Source of the DNA: Bacteroidia bacterium
GTDB lineage: Bacteria > Bacteroidota > Bacteroidia > J057
Assembly (NCBI GenBank): GCA_022760475.1
Contig: JALEFZ010000095.1
Span: 1 to 64,000, forward strand
Direction: 5' to 3'
DNA: 64,000 nucleotides
This document shows positions 17,910 through 32,703 of this stretch, one piece after another; position 1 is the first letter of the stretch; each line of letters starts with the position of its first letter. A program made the position numbers and the translations under genes. Below the pieces are notes generated by a model. The model searched no databases. It was not told the origin of the DNA and worked only from the letters and a program-made list of their open reading frames with translations.

Positions 17910-20900
17910 CTATTTTACCCGCACCCGAAGCATCCCACTATTTTTCAAATTAGATCTGAGTTCCAGGGTCTGTTTCCTCACCCCATCGTCAACCATGATT
18001 GAAGCGGTGTTGGGGGGAACCTTCCCTAGATTCAAGGCATAGAGAATGATGTAGTTATTACCAGGCTTAAAGGTGTATGGTATGGCAATCCTTTCCTTTT
18101 TTAATGGCAACTTTTCTACCAACCACTCGCCATTTACATTTACAGAAACGGTATCCTGATCGTAGGTTCCATAGTCCCAGAGGTAGATGGTCGCCTGCTC
18201 ACTGCTGATCTCCATTTTATCCTGGGGCTTAATAGGCCTGCCTTTTAATCGCTTGGGCTTACCTGAAATGCTGGTTCCATAGTCCTTGGCAATTTGTGGA
18301 GTAGGTGGAGTAGGTGGTATATCTTTGGGAGTTGGAGGAGGAAGATTGTTCTTCTTCGTTACAACGACCTTGGGCACAGGATTCTTCATGGGATCTTCGT
18401 CACAAGCAATCAGGAGTTGGGGATCCGAAAGTTTATCGCACTGATCAGAAACTGCCTGCACCTGATAGGTACCCAGTTTTTTGGCTTCCAAATAGTAATT
18501 ATTGGCTCCCTTTACAGGATTTCCGTTGAAATACCATTGGTATCGCAGTCCTTTTTCGACATTGGTAAGCAAAACCATGCTTTCCCCTTTGCAAAGTAAA
18601 TATGGGTCTCTCTGAAAATTCCCATCGGGAACCCCATACTTCTGTAAGAAGACCCTGTTTTTACTGACCAGGTCAAACTGCGCTCCGGGAAATCTTTTCC
18701 CTTTCGAATTCCCGGCAGCATACAGGCTAGCCCGATTATCAGTGGTCAATGCAGGAAAATCATCATTATCAATTATGGCTTTATCTCCTTTCCAAATAAT
18801 GGTTTGGGACTTTATTCGATTGATTTGAGCTACGAAATAATCCTTCCCACTGGTAAGGCCGGCATAGAAGACTTCCCCCTTACCTCCTGACATATCCAGT
18901 TTTAGCAGCCCCTTTCCTTTAGGAATAACGAGATCATTCTTCCATGCCTCTTTTCCGTTAGCGTCCAGTTGCCACACCTTATTGTTTGCAGCTACATAGG
19001 TAAGTCCATCCTCACTTACGTGAAAAGCAGAAACCCGTGGTCGTACTTTTGGGGCAGTCAAGCGGCTGGCCCAGCTCAATTCGCCCTCAGGGTTAAACTT
19101 GGCTACACAGTAATTATCACCAGCAAGTGAAGCCCTGACAATTTGCTTCCTGAAATTTGCCGCAACTCTGAAGCTATGCAAGAGGTAGACATTTCCGTTT
19201 TTATCCGTTTTAAGGCAATTGCCCATGTTTCCTCTCAGGGGATCCATCCCAAAGGTCTTTACCCATAACATCTCTCCTCGTGAAGAGAATTTAGCCAGAA
19301 ATATTCCTCCACGCCCAATAGGGGCAAAGTTTTTTCGTCCAAAACGCAGGGTATCACTATACTCCGCGCAAACATAAATGTTGCCAATGGGATCGAGCGC
19401 CATGCCCCGCATGTCAGGCATGCTTCTCTCTTTGCTCCAAAGCACATCTCCATCCTTGCGAAACTTGACCAAGAAACGATCTTCATCAGCAAGAATCAAT
19501 GTACCATCAGGACTGGCTGCCAGGTATCCGTGGGTTTTACCTGGAATTACTACAGATTCAAATTTACTTTTGAATAAGCCTTCCCTGGAAAATTGCTTAA
19601 TGGACAATTGTTCTCTTCCCAACTTTTGATTGGCGACCAATACAAAACTTTGTCCTTTGTTATCTACTGTAACATCCAGCAGACGTACTTTTTTCTTGCT
19701 TTTAGGAACCTTATTGGTCCATAACCACCTTGATAGGGGTCCCAATTTCCCTAGGAGGGTATCTTTTCCTCTAAATATTTCCGGTTTATCGAAGGTGTTG
19801 ATCTCCAATTCTTCAGATGTGCTATAACAACTTCCGTTAAATACCTTAACCTTGTACTTACCTGTACGCTGAATTTTCAGGTATGCCTTATCTGAATATG
19901 GAATACTAAGGCCATTGTAAATCCACTCATATGAGATGGCATCAGGAGCCATGGCTCTCAGCAGAATGGAGTCATCTACACAGCGCGTATCGGCAGGTAC
20001 AAGGATGCTGGCAAGCGGGGGTGCAACCGTATTGATTCGCTGAACCTCCGAACTATCTTTGCAGAATTGGCTTCTCCTTACTAAATAATACTCCCCTTCT
20101 TCCTTGACTTCAAGCTGTCTTTCAGTGGCCCCGTCCAGCTTTTTTCCATTCTTGTACCATTGATAGGAAATGTTTTGTTCGGGTAAAAATCCAGCCTCCA
20201 ACATAATGCCTTCGTTGCTACAAACTGTATGATCGCCTTCGGGAAAAATATTGAGCCCACATTTTGAAAAATTGACCCTATAAAGATCATGATCTCCAAA
20301 GCCGCCTTCTCTGGCAGAAGCGAAGTAACCCCACTTTCCATCAGGAGAAAGGGTAAAGTCAAAGTCATAAGCATCGCTATTTACTGGATGACCAAGGTTC
20401 ACAGGTTCTGTCCAGTTTGACCATGTGTCATCCAATCTGTAAGAGACCCATATGTCGTGGTCTCCTTCCCCGCCATGTCCATTAGAATTAAAGTAGAGGG
20501 TTTTCCCATCAGGAGTTAAAAATGGAGCGTCCTCGTCATAGGAGGTATTTATAGTAGGGCCTAGATTGGCAGGCTCTGTCCAGGCAGTATCATTCAGGGG
20601 AAATGAAATATACAGGTCTGTACCCCCATAGCTTTCACTACCTTGATTCGTCAAGATCATCACGCGTCCCTTGCTAAAGCTAAAATCCTTATACACTCCC
20701 ACAAATTTGAATCCATGTATGTGAATGGGATAAATCTTGCTCCAAAAGTTAGGTCCTTCCTTGACCATATATCCAGCTCCTGATCCTCCGGCAAGCCCTC
20801 CATTGCGTACCACCCAAAATGTATCTGCTTGTGGGGAGATTTGCCAGATGAATTCCTGGCCAAAGGTATTAAAAGGAGACCCCATGGGTTTAGCCGTATA

Positions 20901-21149
20901 CCAATTGCCATTATATCCACGCTGTGCAAACCAAATATCTCCTTGATCAACAGCACCACCTGTATTTTGAGGATCTTTTCTCCTCCAGAAGTACATAGTT
21001 TTCCCATCAGGCGAGATAACTGGCTCTCGTTCTTCATAAGGCGTATTGGTTCCCTTTTGGAAGGGAATGGCTTTTTGTGCTTGGTTCTTGGTGGGAATAA
21101 AAAAAACGAAAGAGACTAACAGGAGGAGTTTGGAAAAATTGTCCTTCAT
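17910..21149 (-). CDS. Large secreted PD40 / Ig-like / beta-propeller protein
   Basis: A 1079-residue exported protein with a signal peptide (to about residue 24, KNQAQ). Residues 35-290 hold PD40 (WD40-like) blades: REPVISPDGKTMYFWRR, DAPFLTPDGKTLYF and FTLSPDGKWGYFASAREGG. Two Cys-paired Ig-like domains follow (SYQWYKNGKKLDG, SYEWIYNGLS), then a second propeller of SBBP type (GNIYVCAEYSDT, GNVYLLHSFR), a third Ig-like domain (RYQWYFNGNPVKG), a proline-rich linker and a final beta domain. No YPNP sorting motif is visible, so export beyond the periplasm is unsure. A binding or scaffold role fits; no catalytic residues were seen. Confidence 0.85.
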   Translation of the reverse strand: MKDNFSKLLLLVSFVFFIPTKNQAQKAIPFQKGTNTPYEEREPVISPDGKTMYFWRRKDPQNTGGAVDQGDIWFAQRGYNGNWYTAKPMGSPFNTFGQEFIWQISPQADTFWVVRNGGLAGGSGAGYMVKEGPNFWSKIYPIHIHGFKFVGVYKDFSFSKGRVMILTNQGSESYGGTDLYISFPLNDTAWTEPANLGPTINTSYDEDAPFLTPDGKTLYFNSNGHGGEGDHDIWVSYRLDDTWSNWTEPVNLGHPVNSDAYDFDFTLSPDGKWGYFASAREGGFGDHDLYRVNFSKCGLNIFPEGDHTVCSNEGIMLEAGFLPEQNISYQWYKNGKKLDGATERQLEVKEEGEYYLVRRSQFCKDSSEVQRINTVAPPLASILVPADTRCVDDSILLRAMAPDAISYEWIYNGLSIPYSDKAYLKIQRTGKYKVKVFNGSCYSTSEELEINTFDKPEIFRGKDTLLGKLGPLSRWLWTNKVPKSKKKVRLLDVTVDNKGQSFVLVANQKLGREQLSIKQFSREGLFKSKFESVVIPGKTHGYLAASPDGTLILADEDRFLVKFRKDGDVLWSKERSMPDMRGMALDPIGNIYVCAEYSDTLRFGRKNFAPIGRGGIFLAKFSSRGEMLWVKTFGMDPLRGNMGNCLKTDKNGNVYLLHSFRVAANFRKQIVRASLAGDNYCVAKFNPEGELSWASRLTAPKVRPRVSAFHVSEDGLTYVAANNKVWQLDANGKEAWKNDLVIPKGKGLLKLDMSGGKGEVFYAGLTSGKDYFVAQINRIKSQTIIWKGDKAIIDNDDFPALTTDNRASLYAAGNSKGKRFPGAQFDLVSKNRVFLQKYGVPDGNFQRDPYLLCKGESMVLLTNVEKGLRYQWYFNGNPVKGANNYYLEAKKLGTYQVQAVSDQCDKLSDPQLLIACDEDPMKNPVPKVVVTKKNNLPPPTPKDIPPTPPTPQIAKDYGTSISGKPKRLKGRPIKPQDKMEISSEQATIYLWDYGTYDQDTVSVNVNGEWLVEKLPLKKERIAIPYTFKPGNNYIILYALNLGKVPPNTASIMVDDGVRKQTLELRSNLKNSGMLRVRVK

Positions 21150-21333: not shown

Positions 21334-23886
21334 ATGACTTCCCTTACCAAGACTCCCTACTTCTTCTTATTACTTTTCCTGTTAAACTTCTTTCCCATAC
21401 ATGCCCAAAATCCTTCTCAGCTTGTACCTGAAGAAAGGACTTGTGGCATTGAGGCAATTAGAGACAGTTTGCTCAAGCACAATCCTGTTTTGCTCCTTCG
21501 AAGCAAGCAATTCAGAGAGCAAGCTTTGAGAAATCTTGCCAATGGGCATTCCCATAGCCATAGGATGGCTGATGAGGTCATTACCATCCCGGTAGTGGTT
21601 CATGTCGTCTACAATACCCCAGCAGAAAACATCAGCTTTGCACAAATACAATCTCAAATAGATATCCTGAATGAAGATTTTCGAAGGTTGAATGCAGACA
21701 CCTCCAATTTTTGGTCTCAAGCAGATGACCCTGGGATTGAGTTCTGTCTGGCTCAAATTGACCCCAATGGCAGGCCTACAAATGGCGTTACCCGGACCCA
21801 AACCAACAAAACAGTATTTACAGGTGCAGATATCCATTTTTCCAACTTTGGAGGAAAAGATGCATGGCCCATGGATCAGTACATGAACCTTTGGGTGGGA
21901 GATCTTGGTGGCGCCCTTCTGGGTTATGTTTTTCCTCCAGGTACGGGTGCCTCAACCGATGGCGTGGTAATCAATACTCCCTTCTTTGGAGGCTCTCAAT
22001 TTGCCTCTCCACCCTACAACCTTGGCAGAACAACTACCCACGAAGTAGGACATTGGCTAAATCTTCTTCACATCTGGGGCCCTGGTAATGGAAGCTGTTC
22101 AAGCGATGACAATATCGCAGACACACCGAATTCTGATGGACCTCATACCAATTGTGAAACTGGTGCTAGTACTTGCAGCACATTAGATATGGTAGAGAAC
22201 TACATGGATTATTCTGATGATGTATGTATGAACCTTTTCACAACTGGACAAAAGAACTTGATGAGAGCACAATTTGATCCAGGAGGTTTGCGCAACCCTA
22301 TCTTAAATAGCCAGGTATGCTGTATCGAAAATCCTGAATGTCCTTTTGTTGATAATTGGACAATTACTCCTATCGATGAGTTTAGTGTTTCCATTCAACT
22401 TTCTCCTTCTTTCACCTTCGATAGCATAAACCTGAGGTACACAAAGATTGGGACACAAGATTGGGATACCCTTACGATTTATTCCACTACAAGCCTCACC
22501 ATCTCGGGGCTGGAATCATGTACCGAATATAATTTTCAGCTTCAAAACCTTTGCTCGACTGCAGAATCCTTCTTCCCCTGTAGCCAAAGCATCAGTCAGA
22601 CCCTGGGTTGCTGCGAAAGTCCTACAATTAATTCCATTAGCTTTGTTTCAGATTCCGCACTCCTTAGCTGGATGCCTGTGCTTGGAGCCTATGAATACCA
22701 ACTGATGGTCAAAGAGACAAATTCAAATTTTTGGGATAGTTTTATCACTACTGATACAAGTTTTTGGCTCAATGGTCTTGATGGATGTACAGACTATGAA
22801 TACCTAATAAAAGCACTGTGTTTCTTTTCGGATAGTACAGAAGGCAACTACAGCGATATCATGAGCTTCCAAACGGCACTGAATTTTGACTTGCCAGGCT
22901 GCGATCAATGTGAAGACACCACCTACTGTGATCCCACTGCCATAAGCAGCAACTCTGCCTTCATTGATACCGTTTCGTTTGGTCCAATCAGCAATGAGGG
23001 CAGTGGTACCTCTCCCCTGGGATTCGCAAACCTTACCTCCTCCCAGTATATTTTCAAACTTGACTCTAGCTATAGCTTGACCCTTGCTACCAATGGTCAA
23101 ACTCCCCTGGCTTGGAGGGTTTGGATTGATTTTAACATGGATGGAGTTTTTGATGATACAAATGAGCGCATACTTGATGAAACATTCCCAAAAAATCGAA
23201 TACAAACCCCCATCTACCTTGACGAAGATCTACCGCTTGGTAGCACCCGCATGCGAGTCGCAGGAAGGCTGTTACTATCTACAGATCCCTGGGATGCTTG
23301 TTTACTAGCTGGTTTTGGGGAGTATGAAGATTACTGTATTGAGTTTGTTCCTCAATGCCTTGAAGTAAGTAATCTTACAGCCCGGATAGATAGCCTCACC
23401 AATGACATTCAATTGGAGTGGGAAGGGAATGAAAATGCTAATTTTGAAGTGGGTTATCGACTAGATGGGCAGACTGTTTGGCAATCATTTGGTACAGATA
23501 CCACCTTTGCAGTTATTAACTCAGATAGCCTCTTTGGATGTAGCCTCTACGAATTCAGGCTAAGGCAAGTATGTTCAGGGGAGGAGCCTGCATTTGTTTT
23601 GAGTGATTCAGCCCTCAAAACTCCTTGTGGAGTAGGTATTGAGAAGTTTGAAGCTATCAACATGCTCGTTTATCCAAACCCAGCAAGAAAGCAAGTTACC
23701 ATTGAGTCCAATGTCCAGCTTAGCGAATTCAGCTTGTATGACATGCTCGGTGATCTAATTCTAAGTCGTCAGGTCTCAGACAGAAAGGTCAGTGTAGGTA
23801 TAGAGGAGATCCCAGAAGGCATTTATTTAATAAGGATAAATACCAGGGTTGGCGAACAGTGGCAGCGAATACTTGTAACCAAATAA
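21334..23886 (+). CDS. M43 (pappalysin/cytophagalysin) metalloprotease with T9SS sorting domain
   Basis: An 850-residue exported zinc protease. After a signal peptide (to HAQ, residue 25) and a prodomain comes the metzincin site HEVGHWLNLLH (His236, Glu237, His240, His246) and a Met-turn in VENYMDYSDD. Next are two fibronectin-III-like segments, a GEVED domain (FGEYEDYCIEF), a third FN3-like segment and the T9SS type A tail (VYPNPARKQV to RILVTK). It shares the FN3-GEVED layout with the subtilase at 4.1-7.2 kb, suggesting a common family of surface proteases. It is monocistronic, with its own promoter and terminator. Confidence 0.94.
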   Translation: MTSLTKTPYFFLLLFLLNFFPIHAQNPSQLVPEERTCGIEAIRDSLLKHNPVLLLRSKQFREQALRNLANGHSHSHRMADEVITIPVVVHVVYNTPAENISFAQIQSQIDILNEDFRRLNADTSNFWSQADDPGIEFCLAQIDPNGRPTNGVTRTQTNKTVFTGADIHFSNFGGKDAWPMDQYMNLWVGDLGGALLGYVFPPGTGASTDGVVINTPFFGGSQFASPPYNLGRTTTHEVGHWLNLLHIWGPGNGSCSSDDNIADTPNSDGPHTNCETGASTCSTLDMVENYMDYSDDVCMNLFTTGQKNLMRAQFDPGGLRNPILNSQVCCIENPECPFVDNWTITPIDEFSVSIQLSPSFTFDSINLRYTKIGTQDWDTLTIYSTTSLTISGLESCTEYNFQLQNLCSTAESFFPCSQSISQTLGCCESPTINSISFVSDSALLSWMPVLGAYEYQLMVKETNSNFWDSFITTDTSFWLNGLDGCTDYEYLIKALCFFSDSTEGNYSDIMSFQTALNFDLPGCDQCEDTTYCDPTAISSNSAFIDTVSFGPISNEGSGTSPLGFANLTSSQYIFKLDSSYSLTLATNGQTPLAWRVWIDFNMDGVFDDTNERILDETFPKNRIQTPIYLDEDLPLGSTRMRVAGRLLLSTDPWDACLLAGFGEYEDYCIEFVPQCLEVSNLTARIDSLTNDIQLEWEGNENANFEVGYRLDGQTVWQSFGTDTTFAVINSDSLFGCSLYEFRLRQVCSGEEPAFVLSDSALKTPCGVGIEKFEAINMLVYPNPARKQVTIESNVQLSEFSLYDMLGDLILSRQVSDRKVSVGIEEIPEGIYLIRINTRVGEQWQRILVTK

Positions 23887-26464: not shown

Positions 26465-29400
26465 TTATCTCAATACAAAGGAGCGGGACAGGAAGCTGAC
26501 TCCTGAACGAAGGGTTAATTTGTAAACTCCTTTAGGCAAACTTTCCAGTTTCAATGATTCACTTCCGGATAGGCTTTCCTTCAATGATTTTTGATAAACC
26601 AGTTTGCCATCAGTGCTGTAAATAGACATTTCAAAGGCCTCTTTTCTGATCAATTGGTAATCAAGGGTAAATTGTCCTTTGTTGGGGTTGGGATAAAGGC
26701 TAAAGGAACTGAAATTCTCACTTCTCTCGTTGGATACGGTAACACTGAACGAGGAAACCCTGGAGCATCCTACATTATCCGTTACAGTTACTGTCCCTGA
26801 GCCATCGACCAGGTTATTGACTACCCTGCCTGTATCTCCATTGCTCCAATTGTAAGTATATGGAGGGATACCTCCACTTGCATTGGCAGTCGCAGTGCTT
26901 CCATTTACAACAACCGAGTCTATCGAAAGGCTGTTGTTGAGGATTACCTCTACGCTATCTGTGGCTACATTTCCACAATAATCCATTACTGTAAGGACAT
27001 AAGTCGTGTCAGTAACATAGGTCAAGCTGGGCTGTGTAAGGCTCGCGTCGTTCAAGCCCAAGGCGGGAGACCACTCGTAGGAATACAGGTCAATATCTGC
27101 GCCTTTTCTTCCGATACCAAAGGCTTGAACTGCAGATCCTTGGGGAAACTCACCAAGGAAGGCACTTTCCGCGCCCAAGTTCAGGTCTATGAGCCTGTAT
27201 TCCGCCATATCGGTGCTGTCATTGAATGCTGCCAGGTAAAGTAGCCCTGTTTCAGGGTCAAAATCAGCATCTTGAATGAAGTTGGCATCGAAGCCTACAT
27301 TCCCAAGCTCTTGAACCTCGAGCGTTGTAGGGTTTATGCTAAGGAGTTGATCAGAAAGTGCATCCAGGCTGTACATTTGCCCCTGATTATCAATGGCAAG
27401 CCAAAGTGGGATATCAATTTCAAGTTCCCCAATGCTATCTAATTGTGCTGTAGAGGTATTGATTTCGAATAGGAAACTCCCCAAAGATCCTGTTCTGATG
27501 GCAAAAAGTTTCGAACTGCTAGGGTCATATGAGAGTCCCAGCCAAAGTTGGTTCGCAGGGGTAAAGAAGCTACCTACCTGATTGACCTTCGAACTATCAA
27601 TATCAAAACTGAACAAGATTCCTGCAGAGGTATCCTGCCCAATCAAGTAAAATGTGTTTCCATCTACATCTCCGGCAAAAAACTCCTGAGTTGAAGTAGT
27701 CAATTGTGTATTGTTATCTACCAGATTCACTTCCTGCTGGAATATCTGATCCAAAGCAAAGCCATATGCCCTAGGCAGCAAAGGCTGTAGGCTTCCACCC
27801 ATGGCTGCAGGATCTACTCCCAATTGGATATTGGTCGAAGGTGTATCACAGATATATTGATCTTGTCCTGCAAAGGCAATCAGAGTTGTAGGCTCGACTA
27901 TGCTCAAGTTGAGTGTGTGGGTGGTATCACATACATCAGTTACCGTAACTGAATAGTTTCCAGCTTTCAAGCCCGATACGATCGAACTGCTGTCTCCCGT
28001 ACTCCATGAGTAGGAATAAGGAGAACGGCCACCACCTGCCAGAATGATTCCCAAGCCAGTGCTATCTCCATTACAAGAAATATCCTCAGTGATCAGATTG
28101 CTAGCCAAGACAGGCTGTGGCAAGAGATCAACAGAACCTATAGCTGTAGAATCACAGAAATCTGTTACCGTTACGATAAAGTTTCCTAAACCAACGCTAT
28201 CAATGACCATGGTAGAATCCCCATTGTTCCAACTGAAAGAATAAGGTCCAGCTCCACCTTCTACGTTCACCATGATTTGGCCGTCCAGGTCATTGGCACA
28301 GGTAGGATTTGAGGTATCAAATTCCAATTTGATTGGACCTGTTTGAATTTCATTGATGGAGATGCTGTAGAAACCTGATTGATTGAGGAAACCATCTACA
28401 AGTATGAAGTAACTATCTCCGGGTGTCAGACAGTTTACATCCAAAACAGAGGAGAAACGGTTCAGGGTCGTGGTACATCCTGAGGCGTCGTCATCATTTC
28501 CAGCGATAAAGCTAAAGTTTTGGAATCCATCACAAGTATCCCCACTGAAAACCGCCAACTGGGTATCAAAATCAGTCGTACCAGCTCCACCATTGCAAAG
28601 GTCAATCCTTACAGATCCGGAAGTCGGAGCTACAAAGCTATGCCAAGTAGTCGTACGCAGAGAATTTTCAAACCATGCAAAATTTCCTTCTCCATCGCCT
28701 ACTGGTATGTTCACCAGCGTATCCTCACCCGGTTCAGTCGTTGCTGACAGGTTGAAGTAATCGTAGATCATGCCATCAACAGGGATTGCAATGGCATCGC
28801 ATACTTTATCATTAGATGGCAGGAAGGCCTCTTCCACAGCGATACAGAATGTTCCTTCAGTTCCATTGTATCCAGAGACCTGAACATAGTAGGTTACACC
28901 TGCATCAACAGGTACCCCTTCAATGAATGCATTGAACTGGAGCGTAGAACCGTTGTCCTGGCTACACTCCAATTCTACCAAATCGGATAGGTTGCTACAG
29001 TTTCCTCCTGGCAGGGCATAAACAGACATTTCAGTATCGTCATTGGTTCCCATGGAATCAATATCTGTCGTAATGCTCACTGCTCCTGTGCTAGGGCCTA
29101 CAAAAGAAAACCAAACACTGTTAGCTCCTCCCACAAAACAACTTCCCGTTGGCTCGCCTATCTCCAAGGTAGCATTGGTATTGTCAAAATTACCTTGACA
29201 TGGAGCTCCTACAGTCAAAGAAATTGCATCACATAAGTTATCGTTAACAGGATAAACAATGCCTCCCGCAGAACTTACTTCGATACAAAAACTTCCGCTA
29301 CCACCCGAAACAGCTACATAATATGTATCACCTGGAATTACCCTGGTTGTATCAATCGTAGAACCATTCGTCCCATTTCCCCTTGCACAAGCAATCTCAA

Positions 29401-30208
29401 AAAGGTCGGAAAGATTTGTGCAATTACCTCCTGGCAATGCAAAGAGAGTTAAATCCGTTACCGTATTGCTTCCTCCTACATTTACATCCGTAGTAATTTC
29501 AACTGCGCCTGCGGCTGGAGCAACAAATGAAAACCAAACCGTATTGTTATCACTGGTACACGATCCTAGTGGTTCACCTACCTCGAAAAATGCATTTACA
29601 TTCTGACCATTGCTCATGCCATTACAGGAAGAGTCTACTCCCAACACGATGGCATTACAAAGGGTATCATTCGCAGGTGGAGCGGGTACAGGTGATGGCA
29701 CTTCATCCACCGTAACACAGAATGACCCTTGGGTATTTCCCCAGCCGGAGACTGCTACATAGTAAGTTGTCCCTGGAACTACCGGGGCTTCATCAATTGT
29801 AGAATTGAAAAAGACAGGAGCCATGTTGTCGTCCTGCTTACATGCAATCAAGCTAAGCCCTGAAAGGTTGGTACACTGTCCCGAATTTAGGGCATACATG
29901 GCAATTTCAGTATCCATATTGGTACCAATGGCATAATTGGTACTGATTTTTACCCTTCCCGAAGCAGGTCCGACAAAGCTGTACCAAACAGTATTGATTG
30001 CTCCTGAGAAACAGGAAGGATTGGGTTCTCCATTTTGAATAGAGGCACCTGTGTTATCTCCATTGGGGATACCGTTGCAGCCTGCCCCAACAATCAGCGG
30101 GACAGCATTGCAGAGGTCATCGTTCGCAGGTTGGGCCAACAGCCCAGCTCCAAAAAGCAGGAAAGTCAGGAATAGGCCAGTCGAAAGATTCGAAACAAAT
30201 GTTTTCAT
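26465..30208 (-). CDS. T9SS cargo protein with four PPC-like, SprB-like and nested propeller domains
   Basis: A 1247-residue secreted protein. After the signal peptide (to LLAQ, residue 26) come four repeats of about 140 residues, each starting NDxxCxAI and containing VWFSFVxP, similar to bacterial pre-peptidase C-terminal domains. Two SprB-like repeats follow (GAGPYSFSWNNGDS, GRSPYSYSWSTGDS). An Ig-like domain then begins (QYICDTPSTNIQLG) but is interrupted by about 240 propeller-like residues (LWLGLSYDPSSSKLF, LWLAIDNQGQMY, DADFDPETGLLY) before YSYEWSPALGLNDAS resumes it. A third SprB-like repeat and the T9SS tail (LYPNPNKGQF) close the protein. It is a paralogue of the next gene upstream. 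The start is the ATG at 30208. Likely an adhesin; ligand unknown. Confidence 0.9.
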   Translation of the reverse strand: MKTFVSNLSTGLFLTFLLFGAGLLAQPANDDLCNAVPLIVGAGCNGIPNGDNTGASIQNGEPNPSCFSGAINTVWYSFVGPASGRVKISTNYAIGTNMDTEIAMYALNSGQCTNLSGLSLIACKQDDNMAPVFFNSTIDEAPVVPGTTYYVAVSGWGNTQGSFCVTVDEVPSPVPAPPANDTLCNAIVLGVDSSCNGMSNGQNVNAFFEVGEPLGSCTSDNNTVWFSFVAPAAGAVEITTDVNVGGSNTVTDLTLFALPGGNCTNLSDLFEIACARGNGTNGSTIDTTRVIPGDTYYVAVSGGSGSFCIEVSSAGGIVYPVNDNLCDAISLTVGAPCQGNFDNTNATLEIGEPTGSCFVGGANSVWFSFVGPSTGAVSITTDIDSMGTNDDTEMSVYALPGGNCSNLSDLVELECSQDNGSTLQFNAFIEGVPVDAGVTYYVQVSGYNGTEGTFCIAVEEAFLPSNDKVCDAIAIPVDGMIYDYFNLSATTEPGEDTLVNIPVGDGEGNFAWFENSLRTTTWHSFVAPTSGSVRIDLCNGGAGTTDFDTQLAVFSGDTCDGFQNFSFIAGNDDDASGCTTTLNRFSSVLDVNCLTPGDSYFILVDGFLNQSGFYSISINEIQTGPIKLEFDTSNPTCANDLDGQIMVNVEGGAGPYSFSWNNGDSTMVIDSVGLGNFIVTVTDFCDSTAIGSVDLLPQPVLASNLITEDISCNGDSTGLGIILAGGGRSPYSYSWSTGDSSSIVSGLKAGNYSVTVTDVCDTTHTLNLSIVEPTTLIAFAGQDQYICDTPSTNIQLGVDPAAMGGSLQPLLPRAYGFALDQIFQQEVNLVDNNTQLTTSTQEFFAGDVDGNTFYLIGQDTSAGILFSFDIDSSKVNQVGSFFTPANQLWLGLSYDPSSSKLFAIRTGSLGSFLFEINTSTAQLDSIGELEIDIPLWLAIDNQGQMYSLDALSDQLLSINPTTLEVQELGNVGFDANFIQDADFDPETGLLYLAAFNDSTDMAEYRLIDLNLGAESAFLGEFPQGSAVQAFGIGRKGADIDLYSYEWSPALGLNDASLTQPSLTYVTDTTYVLTVMDYCGNVATDSVEVILNNSLSIDSVVVNGSTATANASGGIPPYTYNWSNGDTGRVVNNLVDGSGTVTVTDNVGCSRVSSFSVTVSNERSENFSSFSLYPNPNKGQFTLDYQLIRKEAFEMSIYSTDGKLVYQKSLKESLSGSESLKLESLPKGVYKLTLRSGVSFLSRSFVLR

Positions 30209-30384
30209 TTTTGGGATAAGGCGGTTTAGTTGAATGGTGATGAAGCACAACAAGTCATTGTCTTCATATGGCCCCTGCCTACCTAGCAACCTACGATAGC
30301 ATTAAGGGGGCTTTTTATTTGTGCAAAGGTTATACCGAAACATACTTAAAACGAAAAAAGATCAAAGAGCTGAAATTTTTACAC

Positions 30385-30417
30385 AAAAAAATCGGAGCAA
30401 GAAAGACTTGCTCCGAT
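30385..30417 (-). terminator. Terminator of the 754-residue cargo gene
   Basis: A perfect 11-bp stem, ATCGGAGCAAG with CTTGCTCCGAT, and a run of T on the minus strand. It separates the two paralogous cargo genes, so they are not simply one operon. Confidence 0.85.
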
Positions 30418-30438
30418 CCAATCTTATATGTGAGTGAA

Positions 30439-32703
30439 TTATTTCTTCACAATCTTTTTATTTACAGTTCCCTCAGAAGTAGAAACCTGAAGAACATACA
30501 TACCACCTGGAAGGTCGCTGATGTCCATTCTGAATTCCTCTCCCAAAGTTCCGTTCAATGTTCTGGCATTTACCTGAGCACCTTTGGCATCCAACAATTT
30601 CACCAAAACATCTTCTCTCTTAATGGTCTCGATGCTGATGAATAGGAAATTACTGGCGGGGTTTGGATAGACCTCCAACTGGCTAAGTCCGAAGGCAACC
30701 AACTCTTCATTTGAAGTGGGGCCTACCACAAAAACATCACCAGAGACAACAGTACCACAGGTATCTGAAACAGTATAAGTGTAGGTAGAATCTCCTTGAA
30801 GGCCTGAAATGGTTTCAGAAGTAGCTCCTGTATTCCAGCTAATGGTATATGGAGGCACACCGTCTACAAGGGTAACAGTGGCTGAACCATTTCCGGTTCC
30901 GTCATCCGCAGTTGAGCTTGCATTTACAGTTAGGTTCTCTTGAACCTGTACAAAGATGGTATCACGAGCAATGTCTCCACACTCATCTCTTACGATTACC
31001 TGATAAGGAGGGAAACCTGCAGGAGGATTCACAGTAGGATTCGCACCATTGATATCAGTGATGAAGTTGTTCGGAGTCCAGGTATATGAGTACTCTGTAT
31101 TGGAAGCTGGCTCAATGCCGAATGTAGTGATAAAAGTACCACCTGCGTAAGCTCCGATAGGTACACTAAGGCCGGTAGTAACATCTACAGCACTCAACAA
31201 ACTTCTGGTATCATTTTGTCCAGCAGATACCATGTAAAGCTGATTGGTAATAGGATCGAAGTCAGCGTCCTGAACATCTACGAAGAAGATTTCAGTTCCC
31301 AGGTAACCAATGTTGGTAACTTCAGCTGTGGTTTTGTTGATGCTAACAAGGTTATCATTCAAGGTCTCACCTGCGTAGAGGTTACCGTTGTTATCACAAG
31401 CCAACCACAATGGAAGGGCGTCAACTCCTCTTAGGGTATCTACAATTGTAGCTGCACCAGAAGCGATGTCGATGGTATACAGGATGGGGAAGAATCCACC
31501 AAATCCGGTAGTCGCATACATGGTGCTGGTAGTTGGGTCAAAAGCCATTCCCAACCAGAACTGGTTTGGCTGAAGCACGCCGGTTGGGCTACCTACAGGT
31601 GTAGCTGTACCGTTGGTTGTATTGATTGCATACAGTTGATCAGTTGCATTGTCAAGGGTAAAGAAAGCACCGAAGGCAAAATCACCACATCTTACATCAG
31701 ATAAAGCTGAGTATGTAACAGGGTTGATTGGCTGGTTAGGCTGACGAATCTTATGGCGTATTCCTTGTGGGCCATTCTGATCCAGTCTAGTGGCAAATGA
31801 GTTTGCAGGTACCAAAGGTACACCACCTTTTACCTGAAGGTCTTCACCAATGTTTACAGAACCTCCCTTACACATCAAAACTGTATCAGGACCAGATACA
31901 ACCAATGGGCTGCTTCCAGGGTCATTGACTACAATTGTGGCAGTACGGGCAGAGTCACAACCATCTCTTACAGTTACGGTATAGGTACCAGGTCCAACGT
32001 TTGGCAAGAAGCTATTTGACGATCCTGTATTCCATAGGTAGGTATAGTTCAAGTCTCCACCTGAAGCAGCAACTGCTGCGATTCCATCACCTGTATTGGT
32101 ACAAGTCGGGTCAAGAGAAAATGGACTTACAGAAAGCACAGAAGCAGGAATTTCAGACATTACCAGTCCAAATCTACCTGTGCTGTCAAAGGTTGTACCG
32201 GATACCCATCCGTCTACAATTAGATAATATTCAGCACCTGGAACCAGACAGTTAACCTCGATGATAGAAGCCCACTCGTCTCCCACTGGACATCTTCCAT
32301 CAATATCGTCATTGGCTCCTCTTAGGTTAAAGGAAGAGAAATTGTTACAGTCAGTAACTTCATAAACCGCCAACTGGGTATCAAAATCAGTACTGTCATT
32401 ACATAGGTCAAATTTGATTGCACCCGAAGGAGGAGCAATGAAAGTAAACCAAACAGAGTGAGTAATTCCGCTCTCATTCCAGGTAGTACCAGCAGGACCA
32501 TTGGTAGAAGGAGCAATCAAATCCTCCCCAGCCTGGGTACCAGCACCAATGTTGGTATACATTAACAGGGTGTCGAAATCGGTAATAGCGATGGCATTAC
32601 ATACACTATCATTTACAGGTGCCGTCTGGGCCATCAGCGATCCTGAAAAGCTCAGGATGCTTCCTACAGCCGCCACCAACAAAAAAGTAAAAACCTTCTT
32701 CAT
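30439..32703 (-). CDS. T9SS cargo protein, shorter paralogue with nested propeller
   Basis: A 754-residue secreted protein with signal peptide to LMAQ (residue 26). It has one NDxxCNAI domain (TPVNDSVCNAIAI/HSVWFTFIAPP), one SprB-like repeat (LNYTYLWNTGSSNSF), an Ig-like domain split by a propeller-like insert (FWLGMAFDPTTSTMY, LWLACDNNGNLY, DADFDPITNQLY), a second SprB-like repeat (VPPYTISWNTGATS) and a T9SS tail (VYPNPASNFL to NKKIVKK). Domain order equals that of its neighbour with three fewer N-terminal repeats, which points to tandem duplication followed by repeat gain or loss. Confidence 0.9.
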   Translation of the reverse strand: MKKVFTFLLVAAVGSILSFSGSLMAQTAPVNDSVCNAIAITDFDTLLMYTNIGAGTQAGEDLIAPSTNGPAGTTWNESGITHSVWFTFIAPPSGAIKFDLCNDSTDFDTQLAVYEVTDCNNFSSFNLRGANDDIDGRCPVGDEWASIIEVNCLVPGAEYYLIVDGWVSGTTFDSTGRFGLVMSEIPASVLSVSPFSLDPTCTNTGDGIAAVAASGGDLNYTYLWNTGSSNSFLPNVGPGTYTVTVRDGCDSARTATIVVNDPGSSPLVVSGPDTVLMCKGGSVNIGEDLQVKGGVPLVPANSFATRLDQNGPQGIRHKIRQPNQPINPVTYSALSDVRCGDFAFGAFFTLDNATDQLYAINTTNGTATPVGSPTGVLQPNQFWLGMAFDPTTSTMYATTGFGGFFPILYTIDIASGAATIVDTLRGVDALPLWLACDNNGNLYAGETLNDNLVSINKTTAEVTNIGYLGTEIFFVDVQDADFDPITNQLYMVSAGQNDTRSLLSAVDVTTGLSVPIGAYAGGTFITTFGIEPASNTEYSYTWTPNNFITDINGANPTVNPPAGFPPYQVIVRDECGDIARDTIFVQVQENLTVNASSTADDGTGNGSATVTLVDGVPPYTISWNTGATSETISGLQGDSTYTYTVSDTCGTVVSGDVFVVGPTSNEELVAFGLSQLEVYPNPASNFLFISIETIKREDVLVKLLDAKGAQVNARTLNGTLGEEFRMDISDLPGGMYVLQVSTSEGTVNKKIVKK

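Follow-up and report, generated by a model that had tools for sequence, protein, structure and literature searches.

Two neighbouring genes on the minus strand of the window, the 64,000-nucleotide stretch of a Bacteroidia bacterium contig (JALEFZ010000095.1) analyzed here, encode secreted proteins, which we refer to as A and B (Table 1). The open reading frame of gene A, at 26465-30289, opens at a TTG codon, from which its residues are numbered throughout, and since the signal peptide begins at Met28, the true start of this gene is probably at 30208. The two products are paralogues, with 30% identity over the C-terminal 583 alignment columns. The T9SS sorting domain (PF18962) was found at the C-termini of A and B with scores of 47.3 and 49.7 bits, respectively, versus a cut-off of 27, and the genome encodes SprA and PorU; export of both proteins by the T9SS is a prediction supported by these sorting tails and genomic components. 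Elsewhere in the window, a further secreted protein (17910-21149) contains propeller-like repeats and Ig-like domains, which by eye look to be arranged in tandem and not nested, and in another secreted protein (21334-23886) a T9SS-like tail and HEVGH, a motif resembling that of metalloproteases, were recognised by eye.

Table 1. Coordinates of genes A and B and of the parts of their split modules
Feature	Residues	Position (strand)	Remarks
Gene A		26465..30208 (-)	T9SS cargo: four PPC/GBD-type domains, SprB repeats, split PKD module, T9SS sorting tail
Gene A host domain, first half	800-832	27794-27892 (-)	ends AAMGG
Gene A insert, five-bladed propeller with linkers	833-1068 (236 aa)	27086-27793 (-)	strands 840-1060
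Gene A host domain, second half	1069-1117	26939-27085 (-)	starts YSYEWSP
Gene B		30439..32703 (-)	T9SS cargo, paralogue: SprB repeats, split PKD module, T9SS sorting tail
Gene B host domain, first half	263-294	31822-31917 (-)	ends QVKGG
Gene B insert, propeller	295-537 (243 aa)	31093-31821 (-)	matches PF14339 DUF4394
Gene B host domain, second half	538-590	30934-31092 (-)	starts YSYTWTP

A preliminary description of this locus, made from the sequence, had claimed that an Ig/PKD-like domain stops at a Gly-Gly, gives way to about 240 propeller residues and resumes at a Y-x-Y-x-W strand, and exactly this layout was found in both genes. The break follows the second strand of a PKD-type domain and precedes its Y-x-Y-x-W strand; this domain carries one conserved cysteine in each half. 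The residue range initially given for gene A (760-1065) was slightly off; the split domain occupies residues 800-1117 in the TTG numbering.

Fold of the insert and relationship of its flanks

AlphaFold2 modeled the gene A module with a pLDDT of 91.1 and a pTM of 0.77, and the gene B module, together with some of the sequence that follows it, with a pLDDT of 80.7 and a pTM of 0.70; the input alignment contained no unbroken domain. In each model, the insert forms 20 strands that make up the five four-stranded blades of a five-bladed propeller. In both models, the N-terminal end of the insert contributes three strands to the last blade, while the fourth comes from its C-terminal end, so the two ends of the insert lie together, and strand topology places them on one side of the predicted inserted domain. 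Both flanks were modeled as confident short strands in this structure prediction, a check that the preliminary description had put forward, and contacts between the host halves, which would form one Ig-like sandwich, are suggested by strand assignment together with homology. Using VIA-align, model residues 36-265 fitted propellers, the best being five-bladed glutaminyl cyclases (3mbr: Z of 18.4 and rmsd of 2.5 over 192 residues, model residues 56-264), and the match lists returned by Foldseek and VIA were filled by propellers. The gene B insert also passes the Pfam cut-off for DUF4394 (PF14339; 32.8 bits versus 29.6), a propeller family that was not listed for the gene A insert in the Pfam scan of the protein, where that insert falls below the family.

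The flanks might not form one domain, in which case the propeller would stand in tandem with an Ig-like piece on either side, the two pieces being truncated or unrelated, and Pfam applied to the intact gene A product gives some reason to think so: the K319L-like PKD family (PF22352) is matched by the second half only (positions 19-83 of 84, E of 0.014), and no Pfam family is matched by the first half on its own. Against this, the joined flanks of gene A cover positions 1-83 of the 84 in PF22352, with an E value of 4e-4 and 20.7 bits, a score under the curated cut-off of 27. A profile of joined flanks, derived from nine modules with the insert cut out in silico, matched 168 distinct unbroken domains in other proteins across the junction, 118 of them without an extra residue near the junction, and at least one of the 168 is spurious (L035, a truncated nested copy that was wrongly aligned). 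Comparison of the joined profile with 22 unbroken domains by hhalign, close to the HHpred check that the preliminary description had put forward, yielded a probability of 99.9 and an E value of 1e-33. Furthermore, a first-half model was trained on unbroken domains only and 300 shuffles were scored per module; the real first halves outscored every shuffle in 13 of 13 testable modules, so their resemblance to the unbroken domain is not due to chance. The break also lies at the identical place in 14 divergent nested copies, and we regard the tandem arrangement as scarcely credible.

We therefore return to a propeller nested inside one split PKD/Ig-like domain, an arrangement that we hold to be almost certain in both A and B. 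The host domain is discontinuous in sequence in the two proteins, and the central claim of the preliminary description, namely that both paralogues contain one Ig/PKD-like domain into which a whole propeller has been inserted, stands, with the halves giving a standard domain by family profile, hhalign and Pfam once the insert is removed. The joined flanks of gene B alone reached no family in Pfam, and the case for one split domain in this protein is made by the family profile and the AlphaFold2 model. The host belongs to the same family as the numerous Ig-like repeats of GhpA, the grappling hook protein of Aureispira (PDB 9flp), and other PKD/Ig-like surface repeats of Bacteroidota, which are usually unbroken, whereas those in A and B are split. 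By itself, the second half is widespread in the class. Matches to the nested profile occur in 316 of 395 genomes, and among the matches listed, only those of the window's own family cover the whole nested module.

Distribution and origin of the nested module

An old origin of the split module is indicated by its 14 PKD-nested copies, found in the window's family and in other Bacteroidota. Of the 13 genomes in the window's family, 6 have full-length modules, one of them with three copies and another with two that are close neighbours, as in the window. Records assigned to uncultured Saprospiraceae and to other Bacteroidota (L067-L072) contain full-length modules as well, and the copy in Parafilimonas (L073) is truncated. 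Relatives of A and B occur as neighbouring tandem copies, three in L062:2706-12458 and two in L063:586-6693, and the gene cluster arrangement is thus conserved. The claim that the insertion was kept in both copies is right as far as it goes, but the module is inherited in many relatives and is not special to the two genes. Relatives in Flavobacteriaceae have the propeller without PKD flanks, and free-standing relatives of the propeller make up whole proteins or tandem domains, none of them flanked by PKD halves. No viral relatives were found.

In the propeller tree, a single branch with a support of 96/87 parts the 14 nested from 28 free copies. When more distant propellers were added, the number of changes needed by the nested set rose from one to two, in a region of the tree with poor resolution, and in the short host-domain tree two changes suffice for 13 nested among 70 unbroken domains. 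The simplest account of these sequences is one insertion followed by descent and shuffling, with both window copies inheriting the module. The fetched reading frames were also scanned for other inserts in the PKD loop, and this revealed propellers only, bar one gap of 158 residues, which was rejected as another insert: at 3.0 bits, the match of its first half is probably due to chance.

Other classes of Bacteroidota have this propeller family nested in another kind of Ig-like domain, the HYDIN/BACON type. The joined flanks of one such host (L136) matched positions 16-89 of the 100 in PF22544 with an E value of 1.5e-11, compared with 0.018 and 5.8e-5 for the separate halves. A branch with a support of 97/86 separates the PKD-nested from the second-host propellers, and their hosts are different domains, so at least two nesting events are most likely. 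One protein (L138:1-3675) contains the propeller twice, in copies about 530 residues apart.

Putative display of the propeller and its precedents

Propeller loops are more variable on the free face, opposite the tether, than on the tether face (mean 0.305 versus 0.372, p of 0.006), with the exception of one well-conserved loop around GFDANFxQ. A variable free face fits a diversified recognition face and would argue against a single conserved enzyme site; weak constraint would fit equally well. A conserved active site on the free face was considered and found no support in this comparison of loop conservation.

Two other readings of the insert bear on its function. The propeller could be an enzyme, for instance one resembling its nearest folds and best structural matches, the five-bladed glutaminyl cyclases; yet identity is about 12%, the matches are general to propellers, and GFDANFxQ is the only well-conserved loop on the less conserved free face, and we think an enzyme improbable. 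Alternatively, the insertion may have no binding role, the propeller being a spacer or a bulky protective domain that was fixed by chance in an ancestor and then inherited. The distribution is explained by a single insertion and subsequent descent, and the variability of the free face agrees with such a role, but the module also occurs in unrelated architectures, next to a subtilase domain in L072 and to MAM and CARDB domains in L069, and the propeller family entered a second Ig-like host, both of which suggest selection for the arrangement. A spacer is, on balance, a possible but rather unlikely explanation.

By analogy with the systems compared below, we lean slightly towards the split domain holding the propeller out as a candidate binding head. 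The chain would form the first two host strands, exit via the loop before the Y-x-Y-x-W strand, fold into an entire propeller of five blades with both ends on the same face, and then return to complete the Ig-like sandwich. The split domain may thereby serve as a bracket that keeps the stalk of beta-domains continuous and holds the propeller sideways, with the free face pointing outward as a putative binding head for a glycan, a peptide or a surface ligand. A single ancestral insertion would have created the module, which would then have moved as a unit into several T9SS-exported proteins. Taken as a whole, the combination of a nested split module, one insertion and binding-head display is in our judgment the best explanation and a likely one.

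The closest precedent for these modules is the split Ig-like domain of RTX adhesins, including FrhA of Vibrio cholerae, AhLap of Aeromonas hydrophila and MpIBP, which projects ligand-binding domains (PMC10865825, PMC12077191). As in A and B, an Ig-like domain is discontinuous in sequence there and another domain buds from it, projecting sideways from the long surface protein (PMC10865825, PMC12077191). RTX adhesins are, however, type I-secreted and carry RTX beta-rolls, whereas A and B are predicted T9SS cargo that end in a sorting domain and have neither a C-terminal RTX beta-roll nor a type I secretion signal. The inserts differ as well, being sugar-binding, peptide-binding, PA14 or RTX-like domains in the adhesins and a five-bladed propeller in A and B; propellers are not mentioned in PMC10865825 or PMC12077191. 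The break in FrhA follows the first strand, while that in A and B follows the second strand of a PKD-type host. An archaeal S-layer protein likewise combines a YVTN propeller with PKD in one surface protein (PDB 1l0q), but according to the title of that entry the two stand in tandem, in contrast to the nesting in A and B. Our literature search on nested or inserted propeller, PKD and Ig domains found no paper, and none of the papers searched mentions DUF4394. What is new here is that a split Ig-like domain occurs in T9SS proteins and takes a propeller as its insert; display by split Ig-like domains was itself already known.

Half-domain models built from the propeller hosts were run on three full proteins (L139, L140 and L142), which revealed further split hosts, the gaps of which hold cleaved-adhesin-like domains, nidogen-like domains and, in one case, an unassigned domain of roughly 260 residues. 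The joined flanks of three of these non-propeller hosts matched PF22544 with E values of 9.6e-13, 1.6e-8 and 1.1e-5, and those of a fourth matched BACON_2 only (0.0018). We find it rather probable that Ig-like loops are general sockets in T9SS surface proteins, a counterpart of the binding-head display by split domains in RTX adhesins: the propeller family would have been inserted independently into two Ig-like families (PKD and HYDIN/BACON), and the loop of the second type would take exchangeable inserts (propeller, cleaved-adhesin jellyroll, nidogen-like and unassigned), several per protein. Spotting a ligand-binding domain where it emerges from a split Ig-like domain is a rule that comes from type I-secreted RTX adhesins. 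That T9SS proteins share this arrangement, although their insert and their two Ig-like hosts differ from those of the adhesins, suggests a general, repeatedly invented mount for the binding heads of bacterial surface stalks, and the finding gives a simple computational test for candidate binding domains in poorly annotated surface proteins of Bacteroidota. Split hosts escape standard domain searches and are therefore probably under-annotated.

In L139:2984-10219, L140:3511-10848 and L142:715-7332, the HYDIN/BACON-type Ig domain is split repeatedly at one loop by different domains within one protein, and the split hosts alternate in part with unbroken Ig-like domains.
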